A DNA stretch of 64,000 bases from Sphingopyxis sp. OPL5. Lineage in GTDB: Bacteria; Pseudomonadota; Alphaproteobacteria; Sphingomonadales; Sphingomonadaceae. A model generated the notes under the pieces. The model was not told where the DNA came from and made no database searches. It saw only the letters and a list, made by a program, of their open reading frames with translations. A program made the position numbers and the translations under genes. This document shows, one piece after another, positions 3,671-34,700 of this stretch (position 1 is its first letter; every line of letters starts with the position of its first letter). The stretch covers positions 2,722,001-2,786,000 of the forward strand of contig NZ_CP060725.1 of the NCBI RefSeq assembly GCF_003797775.2. Direction: 5' to 3'.

Positions 3671-3702
3671 ATGTTATGACATTCGCGGCGACCGCGGCGC
3701 GA

Positions 3703-4815
3703 TCAATCCGTCAGATCGTCCCACATTTCCTTGATCCGTCCGAAAAAGCCCTGACTCGCGGGGCATTCGTCGCCGGTCTCGGTTTCGCGGAATTCGGCGA
3801 GCAATTCCTTCTGCCGCGCGGTCAGCTTGGTCGGCGTCTCGACGTCGATCTGGACGACCAGGTCGCCATGGCCGCGGCCGTTCAGCACCGGCATGCCGGC
3901 GCCGCGCTGGCGCAATTGCTTGCCCGACTGGATGCCCGCCGGGATGCGGATGTCGTGCTTGGCGCCGTCGAGCCCCGGGATGCTGATCTCGCCGCCGAGC
4001 GCCGCAGTGGTGAAGCTGATTGGCGCGCGCGTGAACAGCGTCGTGCCCTCGCGTTCGAAGACCTTGTGCCGCGCCATGTGGAGGAAGATGTAGAGGTCGC
4101 CCGGCGCCGCGCCGCGCGCGCCGCTCTCACCTTCGCCCGACAGGCGGATGCGCGTGCCTTCGTCGACCCCGGCGGGGACGTTGACGGTCAGCGTCTTGCG
4201 CCGATCGACACGGCCTTCGCCATGGCAGGTGTTGCAGGGATCGGCGATGACTTCGCCCGCGCCCTGGCAATTGGGGCAGGTGCGCTCGACCATGAAAAAG
4301 CCTTGCTGCGCGCGGACCTTGCCGTGGCCGGCGCAGGTGGTGCAGCGGTTGGTCTGGGTGCCGGGCTTGGCGCCCGATCCGTCGCAGCTGTCGCAGCGCG
4401 CCGCGACATCGACCTGGATCTCGCGGGTGACGCCGGTGAAGGCGTCCTCGAGCCGGATTTCCATGTCGTAACGCAGGTCGGCGCCGCGCGCGGGGCCGCG
4501 TTGCTGGCGCCCGCCGCCGAAGGCCGAGCCAAAGATCGATTCGAAGATATCGCCGATATCGCCGAAATCGGCATTGCCGCCCGCGCCATGCGGCATGCTC
4601 TTGCCGAACCGGTCATAGGCGGCGCGCTTCTGCGGATCGCGCAGGCAGTCATAGGCCTCGCTGATCGCTTTGAAGCGGGCCTCGCTGTCGCCGCACCCCG
4701 GATTCTTGTCGGGGTGATATTTCATCGCGAGCTTGCGATAACTCGCCTTCAGCGTCGCGTCGTCGGCGGTGCGCTCGCATTCGAGCAGTTCGTAATAATC
4801 GATGTCGAGCGACAT
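3703..4815 (-). CDS. dnaJ: Chaperone DnaJ (Hsp40)
   Basis: 370 aa, normal length. J-domain at residues 1-70 with the HPD tripeptide at 34-36, which stimulates the ATPase of DnaK. A Gly/Phe-rich linker follows (DIFESIFGSAFGGG). The zinc-finger region has four CxxCxGxG repeats (CDSCDGSG, CTTCAGHG, CPNCQGAG, CNTCHGEG) binding two zinc ions. The C-terminal substrate-binding domains are complete. It lies 59 bases downstream of dnaK on the same strand, with a strong hairpin between the two. Cytoplasmic protein folding and heat-shock co-chaperone. Confidence 0.98.
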   Translation of the reverse strand: MSLDIDYYELLECERTADDATLKASYRKLAMKYHPDKNPGCGDSEARFKAISEAYDCLRDPQKRAAYDRFGKSMPHGAGGNADFGDIGDIFESIFGSAFGGGRQQRGPARGADLRYDMEIRLEDAFTGVTREIQVDVAARCDSCDGSGAKPGTQTNRCTTCAGHGKVRAQQGFFMVERTCPNCQGAGEVIADPCNTCHGEGRVDRRKTLTVNVPAGVDEGTRIRLSGEGESGARGAAPGDLYIFLHMARHKVFEREGTTLFTRAPISFTTAALGGEISIPGLDGAKHDIRIPAGIQSGKQLRQRGAGMPVLNGRGHGDLVVQIDVETPTKLTARQKELLAEFRETETGDECPASQGFFGRIKEMWDDLTD

Positions 4816-26639: not shown

Positions 26640-27662
26640 TCAATTCAACCCATGCTTCTTCAGCGCATGGCGGATCTGGTCGTAACTCAGCCCCAGCGCC
26701 TCGGCGGCGATCTTCTGGTTGAAGCGGCAGCGCGCCATCGTGTCGGACAATATCTGCTTTTCATAGGCGTCGACCGCCGCGCGCAAATCGCTGACCGTGC
26801 CCGACGGCGGCGCGACGGGCGCGGGCGCCGTGTCCGATAGCGCCGTCGATGATTCGGCTTTCGCCGCGACCTTGCGCACCGCCGGCTGCCAGGGGCTCGC
26901 GAAGGGATCGAAGCTCAAGGCGTCGACCGGCTTTTCGGGGTCCGCCCAGCGATAGATGGCGCGCTCGATCACGTTGCGCAGCTCGCGGACATTGCCCGGC
27001 CAGTCGTGCCCCTCCATCGCCGCGAGCGCGCGCGGACCGAAGCCCGGCCATTCGTCCCAGCCGAGTACCGCCGCCATGCGCTGGCCGAAATAGGTCGCGA
27101 GCACCTCGATATCGCCTTCGCGCGCGCGTAGCGGGGGCAGGGTGATCACCTCGAACGACAGCCGGTCGAGCAAATCGGCGCGGAACCGATTGTCGTCGAC
27201 CAGTGCCGGCAGATGTTCGTTGGTCGCCGCGACGATGCGCACATCGACACGCAGCGGGCGCGACGATCCGACACGCGTCACCTCGCCATATTCGACCGCG
27301 CGCAGCAACCGTTCCTGCGCCCCCATCGACAGGGTGGCGAGTTCGTCGAGAAACAGCGTGCCGCCGTCGGCTTCCTCGAAGCGTCCGGCGCGGGTGCGCG
27401 TCGCACCGGTGAAGGCGCCCGCCTCGTGCCCGAACAACTCCGATTCGATCAGCGTCTCGGGCATCGCGGCGCAGTTCATGATGACATAGGGCTTGTCCCA
27501 CCGCGTCGACAGGCGGTGGAGGCGTTCGGCGATCAGTTCCTTGCCGGTACCGCGCTCGCCGATCACCAGCACCGGGCGGTCGAGCGACGCGGCGAGGCTG
27601 GCGCGCTCGACCGAGTCCTGAAAGGCCGCCGACTGGCCGATGAATTGGCTTTCGCGTTCCAT
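26640..27662 (-). CDS. pspF: Psp operon transcriptional activator PspF
   Basis: 340 aa. A sigma-54 activator without receiver domain: AAA+ domain with Walker A GERGTGKE, the sigma-54-contacting loop EAGAFTGATR, and Walker B GGTLFLDELATL. The C-terminal Fis-type helix-turn-helix is NQKIAAEALGLSYDQIRHALKKHGLN (read in pieces). In enterobacteria PspA holds PspF inactive until the membrane is damaged. The ATG at 27662 (MERESQFIGQS) matches the family start; an upstream frame adds 12 residues. It is divergent from the psp genes. Confidence 0.94.
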   Translation of the reverse strand: MERESQFIGQSAAFQDSVERASLAASLDRPVLVIGERGTGKELIAERLHRLSTRWDKPYVIMNCAAMPETLIESELFGHEAGAFTGATRTRAGRFEEADGGTLFLDELATLSMGAQERLLRAVEYGEVTRVGSSRPLRVDVRIVAATNEHLPALVDDNRFRADLLDRLSFEVITLPPLRAREGDIEVLATYFGQRMAAVLGWDEWPGFGPRALAAMEGHDWPGNVRELRNVIERAIYRWADPEKPVDALSFDPFASPWQPAVRKVAAKAESSTALSDTAPAPVAPPSGTVSDLRAAVDAYEKQILSDTMARCRFNQKIAAEALGLSYDQIRHALKKHGLN

Positions 27663-27669
27663 TCCCAAT

Positions 27670-27698
27670 GATTGGCAAAATTTCCCGCTGATTGGCAA
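27670..27698. promoter_or_regulatory. Direct repeats, candidate PspF enhancer (UAS)
   Basis: GATTGGCAA occurs at 27670-27678 and again at 27690-27698, 20 bases (about two helical turns) apart, and 65-90 bases upstream of the sigma-54 promoter. This is where activator sites of sigma-54 promoters lie. PspF binding is inferred from position. Confidence 0.4.
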
Positions 27699-27762
27699 GT
27701 CAAATCGGCGCGAAAGGGCATTTCAGTGTGAAGTTGGGCTGTTTTGCGCCCTTCGCCGCAAT

Positions 27763-27778
27763 TGGCACGCTCTCTGCA
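27763..27778 (+). promoter_or_regulatory. Sigma-54 (RpoN) promoter of the psp operon
   Basis: TGGCACGCTCTCTGCA has the GG of the -24 element and the GC of the -12 element at exactly the required 10-base spacing (consensus TGGCACn5TTGCA). It lies between divergent pspF and the 57-aa gene. With PspF adjacent this is a high-value match. Transcription should begin near 27790. Confidence 0.85.
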
Positions 27779-27836
27779 TTACATCATACGAACCGGCGCA
27801 ACTCGCACCGGTGCAGCGAAAAAGGGACTGACGATC

Positions 27837-28010
27837 ATGAAGCCGATTTTTGCCCAAACCGCCACCTTCGCGCTCAGCGCGCTCGGCGCTCTGGCGATCC
27901 TCGTCGGCGTGATCGACCAGCCCCAAGTCGCCTTCGGCATCGCCGCTTCCCCGGGCGGGATGGCGATCGCGGCCGCTGCAGCAACCCCGGCGGTCAGCCA
28001 GATGGCTTGA
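27837..28010 (+). CDS. 57-aa membrane or exported microprotein, first gene after the sigma-54 promoter
   Basis: 57 aa: MKPIFAQTATFALSALGALAILVGVIDQ begins the protein (split here for reading: one hydrophobic helix at residues about 8-25), followed by an Ala-rich tail. It is the first gene transcribed from the sigma-54 promoter and is separated from pspA by a terminator-like hairpin. No family recognised. It could be an exported small protein or a membrane-stress peptide. It may be missed in automatic annotation because of its size. Confidence 0.6.
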   Translation: MKPIFAQTATFALSALGALAILVGVIDQPQVAFGIAASPGGMAIAAAAATPAVSQMA

Positions 28011-28016
28011 CCGGCA

Positions 28017-28067
28017 CTGGTGCCGGGGCACTCTCCCCCCTTGCCCCGCCCCGGCACCAGCATTTTT
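28017..28067 (+). terminator. Terminator or attenuator between the 57-aa gene and pspA
   Basis: CTGGTGCCGGGG (28017-28028) pairs perfectly with CCCCGGCACCAG (28049-28060); the loop is 20 bases and CATTTTT follows directly. It has the form of an intrinsic terminator, yet it stands between the only visible psp promoter and pspA. Partial read-through is the simplest reading. Confidence 0.7.
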
Positions 28068-28103
28068 AAACACGCAAGACGTTTCGATCAGGAGTTTAGT
28101 CAC

Positions 28104-28769
28104 ATGGGTATTTTTTCACGCACCCGCGACATCATCGCCGCCAACGTCACCGACCTGCTCGACCGCGCGGAGGATCCCGAAAAGATGATCCGCCAGATCA
28201 TCTTCGAGATGAACGAGACGCTCGTCGAAGTCCGCGCCTCCGCCGCCCGCACCATCGCGGACCAAAAGGAAATGCGCCGCCACATCACCAAGCTCGAAAG
28301 CCTGCAGGACAGCTGGAAGGAAAAGGCCGAACTCGCGCTGTCGAAGGACCGCGAAGACCTCGCCACCGCCGCGCTCGTCGAAAAGCAGAAGGCCGGCGAC
28401 ATGGCCGAGCGGCTGAAGAGCGAAATTTCGGTGCTCGACGACGCGCTCAAGGGTTATGAGAACGACATCGCCAAGCTGCAGAAGAAGCTCAGCGAAGCGC
28501 GTGCGCGCCAGTCGAACGTCTCGACCCGCCTCGAAAGCGCCGAGAATCGCTACAAGCTGCGCGAGATGACCAACGGCGACCGGGTCGAAGACGCCTTCTC
28601 GCGCTTCGAAATCCTCGAACGCCGCGTCGACGAGGCCGAAGGCCGTGCCGATGCGCTGGGTCTGGGTTACAAGAAGTCGCTCGACGAAGAGATCGCCGAA
28701 CTCCAGGCCGCCGACAAGGTCGCCGACGAGCTCGCCGCGCTCAAGGCGGCCCAGGCCAGCAAGAACTAA
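28104..28769 (+). CDS. pspA: Phage shock protein A
   Basis: 221 aa. PspA/IM30 family: an N-terminal amphipathic start MGIFSRTRDIIAANVTDLLD that binds membrane, conserved AEDPEKMIRQIIFEMNE, and then a long coiled coil. PspA oligomerises on damaged inner membrane (an ESCRT-III relative), limits proton leak, and inhibits PspF when free. A CAGGAG site precedes the ATG at 28104. Confidence 0.97.
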   Translation: MGIFSRTRDIIAANVTDLLDRAEDPEKMIRQIIFEMNETLVEVRASAARTIADQKEMRRHITKLESLQDSWKEKAELALSKDREDLATAALVEKQKAGDMAERLKSEISVLDDALKGYENDIAKLQKKLSEARARQSNVSTRLESAENRYKLREMTNGDRVEDAFSRFEILERRVDEAEGRADALGLGYKKSLDEEIAELQAADKVADELAALKAAQASKN

Positions 28770-28781
28770 GGAGCCGGACCG

Positions 28782-29057
28782 ATGGAAGAAGTGATTATCG
28801 TCCCGATCGTCATCGGCACTCTCTTCCTCGGTCTGCCCTGGCTCATCCTCCACTATGTGACCAAGTGGAAACAGGCCAAGACGCTGACCGGAGAAGATGA
28901 GCAGCTGCTCGACGAACTCTACGACACCGCCCGCCGGCTCGAAAACCGGCTCCACACCGTCGAACGCATCATCAGCGCCGACCATCCCGATTTCCGCCCC
29001 GCGGTTCGCAGCGATGAAGATCTGGCGCAACTCGAAAACCCGACCAGGAGGAACTGA
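28782..29057 (+). CDS. pspB: Phage shock protein B
   Basis: 91 aa. One membrane helix at residues 4-26 (EVIIVPIVIGTLFLGLPWLILHY, read in part) followed by WKQAKTLTGEDEQLLDELYD and the coiled-coil motif RLENRLHTVERIISAD. PspB with PspC senses stress in the inner membrane and recruits PspA. The same helix-plus-motif layout repeats in the five genes after pspC. Confidence 0.93.
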   Translation: MEEVIIVPIVIGTLFLGLPWLILHYVTKWKQAKTLTGEDEQLLDELYDTARRLENRLHTVERIISADHPDFRPAVRSDEDLAQLENPTRRN

Positions 29058-29058
29058 G

Positions 29059-29439
29059 ATGTCTGCCAGCCGCACCAAATTCTACCTCGACAAGCAGAAC
29101 GCCAAATGGAGCGGTGTGTGTTCGGGGATCGCCGACTACAGCGGGGTCGATGTGCTCTGGGTCCGCGTCGGTGCCGTCCTCCTCACCCTGATGGGCGGCT
29201 TCCCCTGGACGCTGATCGCCTACTGGATGGTCGCCTGGATGGGCACGCCGAAACCCTTCGCGCTCTATGGCTCGAACGAGGAAGCGAAGTTCTGGCAGGG
29301 CGTGCGCTCGAACCCGACCGCGTCGACCCGCGACATCCGCTCGCGCTTCCGCGACATCGATCGCCGGCTCGCCGACATCGAACTCTACTACACCAGCCAC
29401 AACCGTCGGCTCGCCGACGAGATCGACAGCCTGCGCTGA
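29059..29439 (+). CDS. pspC: Phage shock protein C
   Basis: 126 aa. PspC domain: KWSGVCSGIADYSGVDVLWVR followed by a membrane helix (VGAVLLTLMGGFPWTLIAYWMVAW). The C-terminal cytoplasmic part RRLADIELYYTSHNRRLADE ends in EIDSLR, the same ending found in the paralogue array downstream. It starts one base after the pspB stop (TGAGATG), so the two are coupled. Confidence 0.93.
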   Translation: MSASRTKFYLDKQNAKWSGVCSGIADYSGVDVLWVRVGAVLLTLMGGFPWTLIAYWMVAWMGTPKPFALYGSNEEAKFWQGVRSNPTASTRDIRSRFRDIDRRLADIELYYTSHNRRLADEIDSLR

Positions 29440-29469
29440 GCGCGATTGTCGGCAACAGGGAGAAGACAG

Positions 29470-29769
29470 ATGAATTTCGGTGGTACCGGTTTCGTCCTCG
29501 CCATCATCGCCTTGTCGATCGGCGGCTGGATGTTCACCACCTGGACCCGCGCCAAGCACGGCTATCCGGTTGAAAATGAATGGGGTGGCACGGTTCATCG
29601 AACCGACCCCGACGCTGATCGAAAAATCGCGCTGCTCGAAGGCGACAATGCCAAGCTCGCCGAGAAGATCGTCCGGCTCGAAGACCGGATCTCGGTCCTC
29701 GAACGGATCGCAACCGAAACCAATGGTCAGTCGGCGCAACTCGCCGATCAGATCGACCGGCTGCGCTGA
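29470..29769 (+). CDS. PspB-like small membrane/coiled-coil protein, array member 1
   Basis: 99 aa. One membrane helix (GFVLAIIALSIGGWMFTTW, about residues 7-25), then RAKHGYPVENEWGG, then a coiled coil with LEDRISVLERIATET and ending LADQIDRLR. Sister of the next gene: both read GGWxFTTWxRxKxGYPxENxWG after the helix, so a tandem duplication is likely. Probably an inner-membrane protein with a cytoplasmic coiled coil that could pair with PspA, PspB or PspC. Confidence 0.85.
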   Translation: MNFGGTGFVLAIIALSIGGWMFTTWTRAKHGYPVENEWGGTVHRTDPDADRKIALLEGDNAKLAEKIVRLEDRISVLERIATETNGQSAQLADQIDRLR

Positions 29770-29780
29770 GGGGAAAAATC

Positions 29781-30098
29781 ATGAATCTCGATGTACTCAA
29801 CGCCATCGCCCCCGTCGCCGCCATCATCGGCATCACGACGGTCGGCGGCTGGGTCTTCACCACCTGGCTCCGCGTCAAGAACGGGTATCCGCTCGAGAAT
29901 AGCTGGGGCAAGGCGGTCTATCCCAAGACCGGCGACGAGGCGATGGAACGCATCAAACTGGTCAGCCAGGAAAATGCCCAACTCCGCGCCGAACTGGGTT
30001 CGGTCAAGGACCGGCTCGCGGTGATCGAGCGCATCGTCACCGACGAGAGCGGCCGGCTGGCGAGCGAGATCGAGGCGCTGCGGCGCCCCGCGAATTGA
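29781..30098 (+). CDS. PspB-like small membrane/coiled-coil protein, array member 2
   Basis: 105 aa. Membrane helix (VAAIIGITTVGGWVFTTW), then RVKNGYPLENSWGKAVYP, then a coiled coil with VKDRLAVIERIVTDE and ending LASEIEALRRPAN. 11 bases after member 1. The close match to member 1 on both sides of the helix points to a fairly recent duplication. Confidence 0.85.
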   Translation: MNLDVLNAIAPVAAIIGITTVGGWVFTTWLRVKNGYPLENSWGKAVYPKTGDEAMERIKLVSQENAQLRAELGSVKDRLAVIERIVTDESGRLASEIEALRRPAN

Positions 30099-30109
30099 GG
30101 AGTTGAACG

Positions 30110-30382
30110 ATGAGCGGCGGATTTGTCCTGGGTTTCTTCTTCATCGTCGTCGGGCTGCCGGTGATCTTCGGGATCGGTTTTGCCGCCTATGAGCGCCACC
30201 TGAAGTTCAAGGAACGCCAGCTCCAGGCGATCACCAGCGAGACGGCTGAAAAGGCGGCGCAATATGCCGCGCACACCGAACGGCTGGAACAGCGGGTTCG
30301 CGTCCTCGAGCGCATCGTCACCGACAAGGGCGTCGATGTCTCGGACGAAATCGAAAAGCTGCGCGACGCGCCGCTCAACTAA
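30110..30382 (+). CDS. PspB-like small membrane/coiled-coil protein, array member 3
   Basis: 90 aa. Membrane helix (GFVLGFFFIVVGLPVIFGIGFA in part), then YERHLKFKERQLQAITSETA, then LEQRVRVLERIVTDK and ending VSDEIEKLRD. 11 bases after member 2. The linker differs from members 1 and 2, but the coiled-coil motif is the same. Confidence 0.85.
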   Translation: MSGGFVLGFFFIVVGLPVIFGIGFAAYERHLKFKERQLQAITSETAEKAAQYAAHTERLEQRVRVLERIVTDKGVDVSDEIEKLRDAPLN

Positions 30383-30405
30383 AAAATATTCGAAAGGATC
30401 CCCCC

Positions 30406-30678
30406 ATGAACCCCTTTGAAATGGTTATCGGCATCGTCCTCATCGTGACGATCGGCAGCATCATTCGCGCCAAGCACGGCATCCGCCGCGACAACCGGGG
30501 CAATGAATATTTCGTCGGCGCGCCCGCCAAGGACGATGCCGAGACCAAGGCGCTGCAGGCCGAGATTCGCACCCTCAAGGACCGCATCCAGGTGCTCGAA
30601 CGCATCGCCACCGACAACAATCGCGCCGCCACCCTCGACGAGGAAATCGAACGGCTGCGCGACCGCTCGCAAATCTGA
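30406..30678 (+). CDS. PspB-like small membrane/coiled-coil protein, array member 4
   Basis: 90 aa. Membrane helix (MVIGIVLIVTIGSIIRA), then KHGIRRDNRGNEYFVGAP, then LKDRIQVLERIATDN and ending LDEEIERLRD. The AKHG after the helix resembles member 1. 23 bases after member 3. Confidence 0.85.
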   Translation: MNPFEMVIGIVLIVTIGSIIRAKHGIRRDNRGNEYFVGAPAKDDAETKALQAEIRTLKDRIQVLERIATDNNRAATLDEEIERLRDRSQI

Positions 30679-30716
30679 TCGCCAGAACACCGATCGCCGA
30701 TAAAGGAGCCAAGCTC

Positions 30717-30962
30717 ATGGCCTTCATCACCCCCGACCTCACCGCTGCGGCGGTTGCGCTCACCGCCCTGACCATCGTCAGCATCGTGGCGCTGCGCGGC
30801 TGGCGCGACTGGATCCAGCTCAAGCGCGAGGAACTCGCCGCCGGCCACGCTCCGATGGCGCAGGACGCGCATGTCCCGCACGCCGGATCGCGGATCGAGA
30901 TCGCCGACCTCAAGGAACGGCTGCGCAAATTGGAAGCGATCGCCGCGGGCGTGGATCTCTAA
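30717..30962 (+). CDS. PspB-like small membrane/coiled-coil protein, array member 5
   Basis: 81 aa. Membrane helix (AAAVALTALTIVSIVALRGW in part), then DWIQLKREELAAGHAPMAQD, then the shortened motif LKERLRKLEAIAAGVDL. The most diverged member: the ERI core is EAI and the EIxxLR end is lost. An AAAGGAG site lies upstream. Last gene of the apparent psp operon. Confidence 0.8.
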   Translation: MAFITPDLTAAAVALTALTIVSIVALRGWRDWIQLKREELAAGHAPMAQDAHVPHAGSRIEIADLKERLRKLEAIAAGVDL

Positions 30963-30966
30963 CGAT

Positions 30967-31070
30967 CCGTCGCCCCCGCGAAGGGTGCCGGGAGTCACGT
31001 GCCTCCCGACACGGCCGGTGGAGAGGTAGCGCAAGCCCGATTGCGGCCCCCGCCTTCGCGGGGGCGACGG
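30967..31070. repeat. Inverted pair of REP-like arms (family B)
   Basis: CCGTCGCCCCCGCGAAGG at 30967-30984 is a perfect inverted copy of CCTTCGCGGGGGCGACGG at 31053-31070. A smaller hairpin (GGGAG/CTCCC) lies between. It separates the psp array from sufE and may end the psp transcript. Confidence 0.75.
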
Positions 31071-31115
31071 GAAGCACCCTTCCCAGACCTCCCCAAATCT
31101 GTCAGGGCCGCCGCC

Positions 31116-31526
31116 ATGCGCAGCCTCGACGATATTTTCGAAGAATATGACTTTCTCGACGGCGACGATCGCTATCGCCTGCTGATCGACCTCGGCCGCA
31201 CCCTCGAGGCGATGCCCGATGCGCTCAAGACCGACGCCACGCTGGTGCGCGGCTGCTCGGCAAGCGTCTGGGTCTACCCCGTGCCCTCTGACGACGGCCG
31301 CCTCCACTTCCTTGCCGACAGCAATGCCGCGATCACCAAGGGTATCGTCGCGCTTGTCCTTGCCGCGGTGCAGGACCGGCCGGCGAGCGAGGTCGCCGCG
31401 ATGGACGTCACCGCCGCGCTCGCCCCCTTCGACCTGACGCGCCAGCTGTCGTCGAACCGCACCCAGGGCGTCCCCAACATGATCGCGCTCGTCCAGGACA
31501 CCGCCCGCCGCCTCGCCGGCGCCTGA
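31116..31526 (+). CDS. sufE: SufE-family sulfur acceptor
   Basis: 136 aa. The catalytic Cys is residue 47 in LVRGCSASVWV, followed by FLADSNAAITKGIVALVL and the C-terminal SSNRTQGVPNMIAL. SufE takes persulfide sulfur from the desulfurase SufS for Fe-S cluster assembly. No suf operon is adjacent, which is common for this gene in sphingomonads. The ATG at 31116 matches the family start (MRSLDDIFEEY). Confidence 0.93.
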   Translation: MRSLDDIFEEYDFLDGDDRYRLLIDLGRTLEAMPDALKTDATLVRGCSASVWVYPVPSDDGRLHFLADSNAAITKGIVALVLAAVQDRPASEVAAMDVTAALAPFDLTRQLSSNRTQGVPNMIALVQDTARRLAGA

Positions 31527-31561
31527 GCGAGCCGTAGCGGGCGAGGGCGGACCTATCCGAC

Positions 31562-31650
31562 CCGTTCCCCGGCGAAGGCCGGGGTCCAGGGCGTGATAAT
31601 GCAACGCCGCCTTTCCACCGCTCTGGGCCCCGGCCTTCGCCGGGGAACGG
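31562..31650. repeat. REP-like palindrome pair (family B)
   Basis: CCGTTCCCCGGCGAAGGCCG... at 31563-31590 is the inverted copy of the arm at 31623-31650. Each arm folds alone (CCCCGGC-GAAG-GCCGGGG). It lies between the convergent ends of sufE and the Oar-like receptor gene. Confidence 0.78.
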
Positions 31651-31690
31651 AAATGGCCGATCGGCCTCTCCCCACCGCAAAGCACCCAAA

Positions 31691-31722
31691 GAAAAGGGCG
31701 CGGGAGTTTCCTCCCGCGCCCC
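31691..31722 (-). terminator. Rho-independent terminator of the Oar-like receptor gene
   Basis: Minus strand: GGGCGCGGGAG-GAAA-CTCCCGCGCCC then TTTTCTTT. Perfect 11-bp stem, 4-base loop and T-tract, 26 bases after the stop. The other strand is followed by ATCTTTTCCCCTTTT, so it may work both ways and also end sufE. Confidence 0.88.
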
Positions 31723-31747
31723 GATCTTTTCCCCTTTTGTCGTACGA

Positions 31748-34700
31748 TTAGAATTCGTACGACACGCCAACCTTCAGGCGCCACACCGACGACGACACGT
31801 TGATGCCGTTGTCGGCCGCGAAATCCGCCGCCCCGTTGGCGCCGGTGATAACGTAACGGCCCTGCGAGTCGATGCTGCTGACCGTGGCGATGTCCTGCAG
31901 ACCCGAGAAGTTCCGGCGATGCTGGACGTTCCAGCCGTTGTCGAGGAAGTTCAGGAAGTTGTCCATCGTGGCGTAGAGCTTCAGCTTGTCGTTCTTGCCG
32001 AACAGGCGACCCGGACCGGGGATTTCCTGCGAGAAGGACAGGTCCATGTCGAAATACCAGTCGTTCGAACAAGTGTTCCGCGAGATCGTCTTGCCGAGAT
32101 ACTTCTTCGCGCAGCCGAGCCCGCTCGCAAGGTCGACCAGTTCCTGAACCGCCGAGTTGCGCGATCCGCTGACATAGGCTCCGGTCGGGCTGCTGACCTG
32201 CGGCGCGATGTTCGGATCGTTGATCCCCGTCGGCAGATAGATCAGCGAGTTGTTAGAACCCGAGTCCGCGTCGTTGAACAGACCGCTGCCGCCGAAGGTC
32301 AGGCTGTACGGACGGCCCGAACGCGCAACGAAGCTGATCGCGAAGCGCGTCGACAGATCGTCGAAGAATTCTTCGCGGAACGCGAGGCGCGTCGAGATAT
32401 TGTGCTTGCTGTTGAAAAAGCCACGCGATGCGGCGGGGTTCTGGCGGTCGAACGCGGCGGTCAGGTCATAGTTCGACCCGGCCGTCGAGTTGTACATGTT
32501 CCGCCGATCCTGCGAGTCGGTGTAGCTGTAGCCGAAGTTGAAATCGACACTGCCGTTCTCGGTGAACAGCCCGCCGTCGAAGGTCTTCTGCAGGATGAAC
32601 GACGCGATATGGCTGCGGAAACTGCCCGCGTTGGTCAGCATCAGTTCGTCGTCGCGGCTGGTGTTGAAGCAGACTGCGTTGACGTTCTGATATACGGGGC
32701 CCGGGTTCAGGCCAACGAGCTTCGCGGTACAGCCCGCGACGTTCGGGTCAATCGCGCGATAGAGCGGGCGACCGTCGATCGTGTAGCCGTTGATACCGAG
32801 CGCCGGGTTAACCGTCTGCGACAGGTCGACGATGGTGAACGGATTGCGATACTTGCTGTAGATATAGTCGAGCGTCAGGTTCCAGCCGCTGAAGAAGCCC
32901 GAGGGGGCAAGGTTCAGTTCCGACGTGAAGCCGATGTTGGCGCGCAGCACCGTCGGCATCTTGATGTTCGGGTTGATCGACTGGGTGTCGCCCAGACCGC
33001 GCGCGGCGCTTGCCGAGGCCGACGACTGGAAGCAGGTCGGGACGCCGGTGAACTGGCCGTTGACGACCACGTCGAGCTGCTGGCCCGGCGCGAGGCCGCA
33101 CGCCGTATCGGCCGTCGTGCCGGTCGCGAAGCCGCGGCCATCGTTCTGGAAGGCGTTGCCGAACCAAACGACCGGGTCGCCGCCCGAGAAGATGCCGACG
33201 CCGCCGGTCAGCTTCGGCCGGCCGAACACCGCGAAATCGTCGAAGTCATAGGTCAGCGCGAGGCGCGGCATGATTACCGGCGGCAGGTTGCTGAAGCTGG
33301 TGTTGTTGGGGATGCCGTACCGCTGCTGGAACACGGGGTTCAGCGCCGGGCGGCCGCCGTCGTACCAGTCCATGCGCACGCCGAGCACGGCGTTGAGCTG
33401 GCTGCTGATCTCCCATTCGTCCTGCGCGAAGATCGAATAGTTGCTGCGCGTGAACTGGGCGGCGGCGTCGTTGACGTCGCCGGTGGCCGAGAAGTTGCCG
33501 AACGCCCCGAAGGTACAGCCGTTGACCACGTTGACCGGGGTGGTCGAGGTCGTTGCGGTCGTGCAGAGCGGGTTTGCGCCGGCAGGGCGGACGCCCGGCG
33601 AGAGCAGGCCTGCACGCAGGTCGTCGATGTTGCGGAACACCAGCGTGCCCGTCGCATTCTGGACGAACAGGTTGAACAGGTCGGCGCGGTTGAGTTCGGC
33701 CCCGACCTTCAGCGTGTGCGCGCCGGTCACCAGCTTCGCAACGGCGCGATACTGGTCGATGTTGGTGCGCAGGTCGTTCGCCGAACGCGAGTTGCCGGGT
33801 CCGGCAAGAATGGTGCCATCGGTGCCGGTGGCATTGTCGATGCCGACGATGATGCGCGGGATCGGGCTGCCCGATTGGGCTTCGCCGCCGCCGACCGGAT
33901 CCTGGCGATCACGGACTTCCGAGCGCGAATAGCGCAGTTCGGTCGAGAATTCGTCGGTCCACTGCGAATAGAGGCGTCCCGAATAATAGTTCGACTTGGT
34001 ACCGCTGGTATAGAAGGTGTTCAGGCCGATCGCCTGCGGCGACGAGCCGGTGAACAGGTCGTCGGGGCGGGTCGAGCCTTCCTCGAGGCGCTGATAGGTC
34101 AGCTCGAGACGATGGTTGTCGTTGATCTGCCAGTCGAGGCGACCGAAATAGCGATCGTTCTTGTACGGGCGGTTGGTGACCAGCGGGCCGGTCTCGATGC
34201 CATAGACGTCGCTGAGGACATCCGAGATGGCGTTGAACTGATCGAGCGAGATGCCGGTCTGCGGATTGGCGTAGCCCGCGCCGGTCGGACCATCGTCCTG
34301 CGACTGGCCGGCTTCCTGATGCTCATAGGCGCCGAAGAAGAACAGGCGATCCTTGATGATCGGGCCGCCGAGCCAGGCGCCCCAGCGCTTCTCGGGCTTG
34401 ACCGGTGCAACCTTGGGGATGCCGGGCAGTGAATCGCCACGCATGCCGTTGTCGGAATATTCGAAGAAGCCGCCGAATTTATAGTCGTTGGTACCCGACT
34501 TGGTGACGACGTTGATCGCGCAGCCGGTGAACTGGCCGTAATCGACGTCGAACGGGGCGAACTGGACCTGCGTTTCGCGAACCGCGTCATAGGGGATCGG
34601 GGTCGACGAACGCGACGAGAAGCCGGTGTCGTTCAGGCCGTAGATGTCGCCCTGGCTGATGCCGTCGACGGTGAAGGCGTTGCCGCGGTCGTTGCCACCG

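Follow-up and report, generated by a model that had tools for sequence, protein, structure and literature searches.

A Sphingopyxis psp operon extended by five predicted membrane-anchored proteins that resemble PspB and PspC

PspA, which repairs the stressed cell membrane, is a bacterial relative of ESCRT-III, and the Psp (phage shock protein) system has mostly been studied with a single PspB and a single PspC partner. In a 64,000-nucleotide (nt) stretch of Sphingopyxis sp. OPL5 (contig NZ_CP060725.1, positions 2,722,001 to 2,786,000; here the window), a complete psp locus with pspF, a sigma-54 site, a leader reading frame and pspABC continues into an array of five further small genes, M1 to M5. 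Compared by sequence, M1–M4 appear to combine an anchor like that of PspB with a coil and EIxxLR tail of the local PspC type. We propose that the array encodes induced, membrane-tethered adaptors that dock PspA within a sigma-54/PspF-type Psp operon, a reading to which we give a probability of about one half. The features are as follows, with lengths in amino acids (aa).

26640..27662, − strand: pspF, divergent, sigma-54 enhancer-binding activator (NCBIfam TIGR02974, 470.7 bits against a cut-off of 443.55)
27763..27778, + strand: sigma-54 −24/−12 type site TGGCACGCTCTCTGCA, matching at 11 of 12 scored positions
27837..28010, + strand: hydrophobic leader open reading frame (ORF), 57 aa, between promoter and pspA (gene caller)
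28104..28769, + strand: pspA (TIGR02977, 270.4 bits against 242.95)
28782..29057, + strand: canonical pspB (TIGR02976, 91.4 bits against 51.7; PF06667, 98.4 bits)
29059..29439, + strand: pspC, with an array-like end DEIDSLR (TIGR02978, 116.6 bits against 104)
29470..29769, + strand: M1, 99 aa; transmembrane (TM) helix, GYPxENxWG linker, coil, QIDRLR end
29781..30098, + strand: M2, 105 aa, a paralogue of M1 (41% identity)
30110..30382, + strand: M3, 90 aa, the top member against the PspB model
30406..30678, + strand: M4, 90 aa (alignment A2)
30717..30962, + strand: M5, 81 aa, the last of the array; distinctive conserved tail RIExADLxERIRKLEAIAxGV
31116..31526, + strand: sufE-like gene, downstream neighbour (homologue in 87 of 104 fetched family stretches)
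31696..31721, + strand: terminator-like hairpin, the sole + strand one in 27600–31800 (8 sites over both strands, against 4.5 expected by shuffling)

PspF, PspA, PspB and PspC of the window each exceed the NCBI curated cut-offs. The PspF score comes from a longer ORF (26643–27698), the ATG start at 27662 being the choice of the gene caller. The sigma-54 site was scored against what we take to be the consensus, and the gene at 31116..31526, which we take to be sufE-like, probably lies outside the Psp system. As an initial annotation of this DNA had reported, five genes of 99, 105, 90, 90 and 81 aa lie directly 3′ of pspABC on the + strand; the gaps before M1–M5 are 30, 11, 11, 23 and 38 nt. Position 27763, given there as the start of the expanded locus, is instead the sigma-54 site, and no gene begins there. 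When the source genome was searched with M3, the array was found once, along with one marginal match elsewhere (E 0.68).

Conservation and expression of the array

The family of the window was taken as Sphingomonadaceae in the broad sense, and 138 of its 149 genomes have PspA. From 145 PspA places, 101 were taken, chosen for rank and spread over genera before the arrays had been looked at; together with five further family places they gave 106 family psp loci (L037–L142), and 14 loci were fetched from other families of the order. The 44 places left out include the window's own locus. Two loci with no pspA called (L121, L140) were excluded, which leaves 104 loci from 101 genomes, three genomes contributing a second PspA locus (L116, L132, L139).

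Array members, defined as phmmer matches (E 1e-3) to M1–M5 of the window, occur in 102 of the 104 annotated loci (at least one member each), which excludes that the array is missing from relatives. The 420 members (median length 90 aa) include some fragments, the shortest of 43 aa, and possibly split genes counted twice, for example in L060. A locus holds one to eight members, most commonly four or five (29 loci each). The arrayless loci are L112 and L139; L139 is a second PspA locus, and the main locus of that genome does have an array. By profile labels, M5 is last in all 91 loci that have it, and M4 is penultimate in 83. Intergenic gaps have a median of 23.5 nt and measure at most 50 nt in 378 of 420 cases, with 94 of 420 abutting or overlapping. 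Among the best 80 of 512 confirmed stretches, named M5 carriers include Sphingopyxis, Sphingomonas, Sphingobium, Sphingorhabdus, Blastomonas, Qipengyuania, Croceibacterium and Parasphingopyxis; the closest Sphingopyxis-named M5 proteins in this set are up to 90% identical to that of the window, and one Sphingomonadaceae-named record reaches 93%.

Two variants of the locus were seen. In two genomes (loci L116 and L132 of G053 and G077), a second pspA-pspC pair without pspB is followed by a lone M5-type gene. In L133, L134 and L135, a PspC-like gene of 62–64 aa sits between pspB and pspC.

Upstream of pspA, a sigma-54-type site (at least 11/12) is present in 75 of the 104 family loci, and sites of the same score appear in 0 of 104 shuffled upstream regions (one shuffle each). 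The operon interiors of 102 loci contain no sigma-54 site scoring at least 11/12. Within 27600–31800 of the window, neither a sigma-70-like promoter (0.5 expected) nor a + strand terminator-like site upstream of 31696 was detected, both of which are weak evidence. Because of the locus layout, M1–M5 are likely to be co-transcribed with pspABC.

M1–M5 were all chosen by a codon-usage gene caller trained on long ORFs from the window and the fetched loci. Against 29–31 Sphingopyxis-type loci, their median ratios of nonsynonymous to synonymous substitution rates (dN/dS) are 0.23, 0.22, 0.22, 0.28 and 0.16, compared with 0.08–0.11 for pspABC and 0.15 for SufE; the top single value among array genes is 0.61 (M3). 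M1–M5 are thus real, selected genes, under purifying selection that is looser than on pspABC.

Anatomy of the array proteins and resemblance to PspB and PspC

An N-terminal membrane helix followed by a coiled coil, as initially described, is predicted from hydropathy and charge and, for M1 and M3, by AlphaFold2 (AF2). The hydrophobic helix is found in 414 of the 420 members and begins by residue 15 in 410. The 15 residues after it are richer in K/R than those before it in 411 of 414, and the proteins are therefore predicted to be single-pass with N-out, C-in topology. In the AF2 model of M1 (mean predicted local distance difference test score, pLDDT, 80.8), helix 6–30 is connected to helix 47–98 by a linker across the GYPxENxWG block; in that of M3 (mean pLDDT 80.4), helix 3–73 breaks after TD and continues as helix 76–86. 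Both modelled members are TM-plus-coil helices rather than unrelated folds.

The core motif LxxRxxVLERIxTD had been assigned to all five proteins. It is exact in M3 and M4, near-exact in M1 (finishing TE) and M2 (VKDRLAVIERIVTD), and degenerate in M5 (LKERLRKLEAIAAG). Four proteins had been said to terminate in EIxxLR or QIxxLR, which is correct for M1 (QIDRLR), whereas M2–M4 carry 4–5 residues beyond EIxxLR; M5 is without this tail. The block GGWxFTTWxRxKxGYPxENxWG is indeed common to M1 and M2, and the motif quoted for PspB and the ending quoted for PspC are found in the window proteins. Among the 329 non-M5 family members, which are related and hence not independent cases, a loosened core motif occurs in 232 and an [EQ]IxxL[RK] tail in 298. 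When the part after residue 30 was shuffled (n = 50), the means were 3.2 and 2.4, with a maximum of 7 for each. The alignment of 24 M5 sequences has 13 invariant columns.

Over R....xE..xT[DS]....L..EI..LR, the coil of M3 and the end of the local PspC can be aligned gap-free. A regular expression for the common tail 'module' matched 0 of 104 PspC, and the spacing was taken from alignments instead. In 102 of 104 family loci, PspC has EIxxL among its final 12 residues, compared with 3 of 13 PspC proteins from elsewhere in the order, and E[IL]xxL[RK] is exactly terminal in 97 of 104 against 0 of 13. This tail form is near-universal in the PspC of the array-bearing family and uncommon in the few outside sequences.

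Compared with PspB (TIGR02976, PF06667), the array proteins are likewise small, with an N-terminal membrane helix and a predicted cytosolic coil containing R....[LV]ERI.., and are encoded in the psp operon. They differ in lacking the invariant HY and DE (none of H24, Y25, D39 and E40 of PspB is a conserved column in the array alignments), in scoring under the curated cut-off, and, for M1–M4, in having the extra EIxxL tail. With the C-terminal segment of the family's PspC (TIGR02978) they have in common the identical spacing to L..EI..LR; in contrast to PspC they are without the PF04024 domain and have one membrane helix instead of two.

Such likeness could in principle arise if M1–M5 were unrelated single-pass coiled coils, similar to PspB and PspC through coil composition alone. 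Against TIGR02976 (cut-off 51.7), M3 scores 23.6 bits (E 4.5e-5), M4 21.6 bits (E 2e-4) and M1 13.3 bits, all below the cut-off, and M2 and M5 are unlisted at E up to 1. M3 also matches TIGR02978 (E 1.4e-4), far under its curated cut-off. PF04024 (PspC domain) has no match in M1–M5 at E up to 1, and at the same threshold none is listed for the PspD and PspG models, which we presume to be present in the Pfam and NCBIfam libraries.

Each class was further scanned with 18,950 NCBIfam models (E up to 0.01). The M3 class matches PspB in 17 and PspC in 15 of 28 sequences; of 24 M4-class sequences, 10 match PspB and 5 match PspC, and there are four matches to an FtsL model; the M1/M2 class matches PspC in 13, Npun_F5560 in 10 and PspB in 1 of 37. 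Neither the PspB nor the PspC model matched any of the 24 M5-class sequences, and PspM matches in two of them (best E 5.4e-4) were too few to be used. That the most frequent matches among so many models are PspB/PspC for M3, PspB for M4 and PspC for M1/M2 argues against coil composition as the sole cause, as does the R...LE...T[DS]....L..EI..LR spacing common to the array and the family's PspC; the location in the psp operon is independent evidence in the same direction.

In hhalign comparisons, FtsB served as the matched TM-plus-coil control. With PspB, M3 gives 90–92%, M1/M2 88% and M4 64–84%; with the family's PspC, M1/M2 gives 95%, M4 88% and M3 67%; with FtsB, M3 gives 24%, M1/M2 17% and M4 75%. 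PspB and PspC give 14–18% with each other, while M5 gives 94% with M4 and 84% with M3. The nearness of M4 to FtsB, its FtsL matches, the failure of M5 to match either PspB or PspC, and the weak similarity to the PspC of other families all speak for unrelated coils. We consider this explanation largely refuted for M1–M3 and open for M4 alone and for M5; for the array as a whole it is scarcely credible. To judge from the profiles, M1–M3 appear well linked to PspB, whereas the link is open for M4 on its own and M5 is connected only indirectly. The link to PspC is mainly to the family's own PspC, and could come from a common partner, from conversion or from convergence.

Relatives outside the family and origin of the array

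Searched with a profile of M4, 91 of the order's 118 genomes have a match, and 56 of these 91 lie outside the family. Across 249 genomes of the phylum, matches occur in 2 genomes from another family of the class and in 8 from different classes. Eighteen loci picked for a match distant from pspA were read, together with L178. Neighbours of these orphan genes include those for a sigma-70 factor, a GNAT acetyltransferase, an S-methyltransferase and an EAL protein, besides genes that we take to be dut and coaBC; no PspA, PspB or PspC gene was seen in the orphan loci read. Like the array proteins, the orphans have a TM-plus-LEERVRVLERIVTDK..L..EIDxL layout. They differ in occurring as one or two genes away from pspA, the 18 loci having been chosen for that.

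A profile built from 17 orphans (A7) recovers M1–M4 in the window (M3, 3.4e-17; M4, 6.7e-17; M1, 8.9e-8; M2, 1.2e-7), and M5 gives no match at 1e-5. The family that M1–M4 match resembles PspB and PspC but is separate from PspB itself. A7 matches in 28 of 299 phylum genomes, of which 13 are within the family; outside it the matches are sparse (15 of 286). Among 120 listed of 6240 proteins, named holders include Kordiimonas, Emcibacter, Hyphomonas, Iodidimonas, Thalassotalea and Colwellia, and the named entries are mostly 'hypothetical protein' with a few 'Phage shock protein B'. Against solved structures, profile A1 and profile A7 each produced a single marginal match that looked unrelated (E 0.0054 and 0.0094).

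Two other arrangements were met. In L178 and L322 (G424, G724), from another family of the class, two tandem M4-like genes lie off the psp locus at about 3700–4400, beside what are presumably dut and coaBC. In five loci of another family of the order, f8 (L146, L149, L180, L189, L194), the M4-like gene is inside the psp locus: pspC is followed by a second PspC-like protein of 75–84 aa and then by one M4-like gene. The f8 arrangement is possibly an intermediate state.

Among 83 genomes of the order outside the family, the M4 profile matches in 54 of 70 with PspA and in 2 of 13 without (Fisher p 4e-5), or in 47 of 70 and 2 of 13 (p 0.001) when seven weak unplaced matches, possibly pspB, are counted as absent; these counts include psp-linked copies and ignore phylogeny, and several of the genomes are incomplete. 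Canonical PspB is present in 14 of 15 orphan-bearing genomes against 3 of 39 others, a comparison confounded by class, because 13 of the 15 orphan-bearing genomes but none of the 39 others come from outside the class; 19 of the 39 were cleared using the M3 and M5 profiles only.

We tentatively suggest, at somewhat less than an even chance, that array and orphans form one unnamed third class of Psp membrane partner, with a PspB-type anchor and a PspC-type tail for docking PspA. It would be kept as one or two unlinked copies in some Pseudomonadota, and operon-borne and expanded up to eight in Sphingomonadaceae. If so, genomes with orphans would contain Psp components that have been overlooked.

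Alternatively, M1–M5 could be dosage copies, that is, tandem duplicates of the neighbouring pspB doing the job of PspB. The initial annotation had likewise spoken of a duplicated set of PspB-like adaptors. A clause in Ravi 2024 (PMC11237479) mentions 'PspB duplicates' in a pspFABC operon, with AOL22920.1 as the example. This variant, so far as a single clause can tell, may be what is seen here, since it too has additional genes of PspB type within a psp operon, and the matches of M3- and M4-class members to PspB models under the cut-off are also in keeping with duplication.

The tree (80 rows, 78 columns; 40 of 77 inner branches open) argues otherwise. All 16 PspB rows are on one branch, with a support of 99 in the Shimodaira–Hasegawa-like approximate likelihood ratio test (SH-aLRT), and the array rows are outside it. 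All M3 and M1/M2 rows and 11 of 12 M4 rows group with 7 of the 17 orphans (SH-aLRT 82, under the 95 mark), and M5 and one long-branched M4 row group with other orphans. A single clade of the array and Sphingomonadaceae PspB is weakly rejected in the approximately unbiased (AU) test (p-AU 0.037). Because the alignment is short, the tree is moderate evidence against an origin from the local pspB. With the absent PspB invariants, and with M1–M5 far under the TIGR02976 cut-off or unlisted, the array members are probably not copies of the neighbouring pspB. Plain PspB duplication is disfavoured by the tree and by the sub-cut-off profile scores, and we hold dosage copies to be highly improbable. Separately, the psp locus L186 has another PspB after pspC, divergent and 74 aa long, which by profile is a true PspB duplicate, unlike the array.

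The array had also been offered as a candidate for an undescribed extension of the Psp system. This has to be qualified by the clause on 'PspB duplicates', and otherwise stands in so far as neither the array nor a separate family is described in the titles and abstracts of the literature searched, a search that left subscription journals and supplements outside. The string 'sphingomon' is absent from the main text of Ravi 2024 and from the available text of Popp 2022 (PMC9239133).

Proposed function

The adaptor reading could work as follows. A gene of the orphan-type family would have entered the psp operon in a sphingomonad ancestor, followed by tandem duplication. After PspF release, the array proteins would be made alongside PspA and might form mixed coiled-coil oligomers with PspB and PspC in the inner membrane. 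Their PspC-type tails would dock PspA, giving many PspA tethers at damaged sites, and PspA would be kept off PspF so that the response is sustained. M5, with its own invariant tail, may be a separate partner of PspA and PspC. The expanded psp operon that had been proposed earlier is supported as real, its additional products being predicted membrane-anchored coiled-coil proteins that resemble both PspB and PspC.

Reports on enterobacteria fit a docking tail. The C-terminal region of PspC binds PspA and frees PspF (PMC3068692, PMC5596341), and in E. coli a PspC fragment, 40–119, with a putative leucine zipper is required for PspA binding and induction, PspB meets PspC via membrane regions, and the PspC C-terminus may change membrane side (PMC3068692).

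PspA-less genomes provide a further comparison. Eleven family genomes have no PspA match, and nine of these give no hit with the M4 profile. Elsewhere this profile catches M1–M3 as well but not M5, so that PspA-less genomes were unsearched for M5. In the other two genomes the contig breaks within the operon, in one case at pspC and in the second immediately ahead of the array. The linked loss is possibly one deletion, and therefore supports, without proving, functional dependence on PspA.

Several points weigh against the adaptor reading, among them the possibility that array and PspA were lost in one deletion of linked genes. PspB–PspA contact went undetected in E. coli (PMC3068692), and a PspB-like anchor therefore need not imply contact with PspA. 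Similarity in hhalign drops to 37% (M1/M2), 11% (M4) and 3% (M3) with the PspC of other families. M4 resembles FtsB (75%) about equally to PspB (64–84%), and M5 gives 0.2–3% with PspB and PspC, less than with FtsB (8%). The Npun_F5560 model matched by 10 of 37 M1/M2 members is unrelated and cyanobacterial-named. The AF2 single-chain models of M1 and M3 have low predicted template modelling scores (0.39 and 0.35). The array alone as one clade, that is, a single capture, is not rejected, yet is not demonstrated either (p-AU 0.258). Divergent pspF was called in 67 of 104 loci, the other 37 not having been inspected.

The array proteins might instead be effectors that act directly on damaged membrane or misplaced membrane proteins without binding PspA. 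Downstream of an inducible-type promoter, they would accumulate after induction, and Yersinia PspBC alone are reported to counteract secretin toxicity (PMC5596341). However, most positions that are invariant or nearly so belong to the coil and tail, not to the membrane helix, and array size does not correlate with secretin number (rho −0.13, p 0.23, 91 loci). This absence of correlation is also the outcome of an indirect test of the stimulus-specific sensing that the initial annotation had suggested. We regard direct action as unlikely. The array could also be a negative modulator that competes with PspC for PspA or PspB and ends the response after induction; the PspC-like tail and co-induction fit competitors as readily as helpers, and we consider this role distinctly unlikely.

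If the proteins are PspA-docking adaptors, families of up to eight related adaptors per locus make a natural experiment on the membrane recruitment of PspA and the release of PspF, and the orphan relatives, mostly annotated as hypothetical, become candidate Psp components elsewhere. Sphingopyxis and its relatives are culturable, which makes deletion tests practical.

An Rfam scan of the window gave zero families at the gathering score. At the leader position, an ORF of 39–69 aa is found in 59 of the 104 family loci and is weakly conserved; the 57-aa ORF of the window may be a small membrane peptide or a leader.

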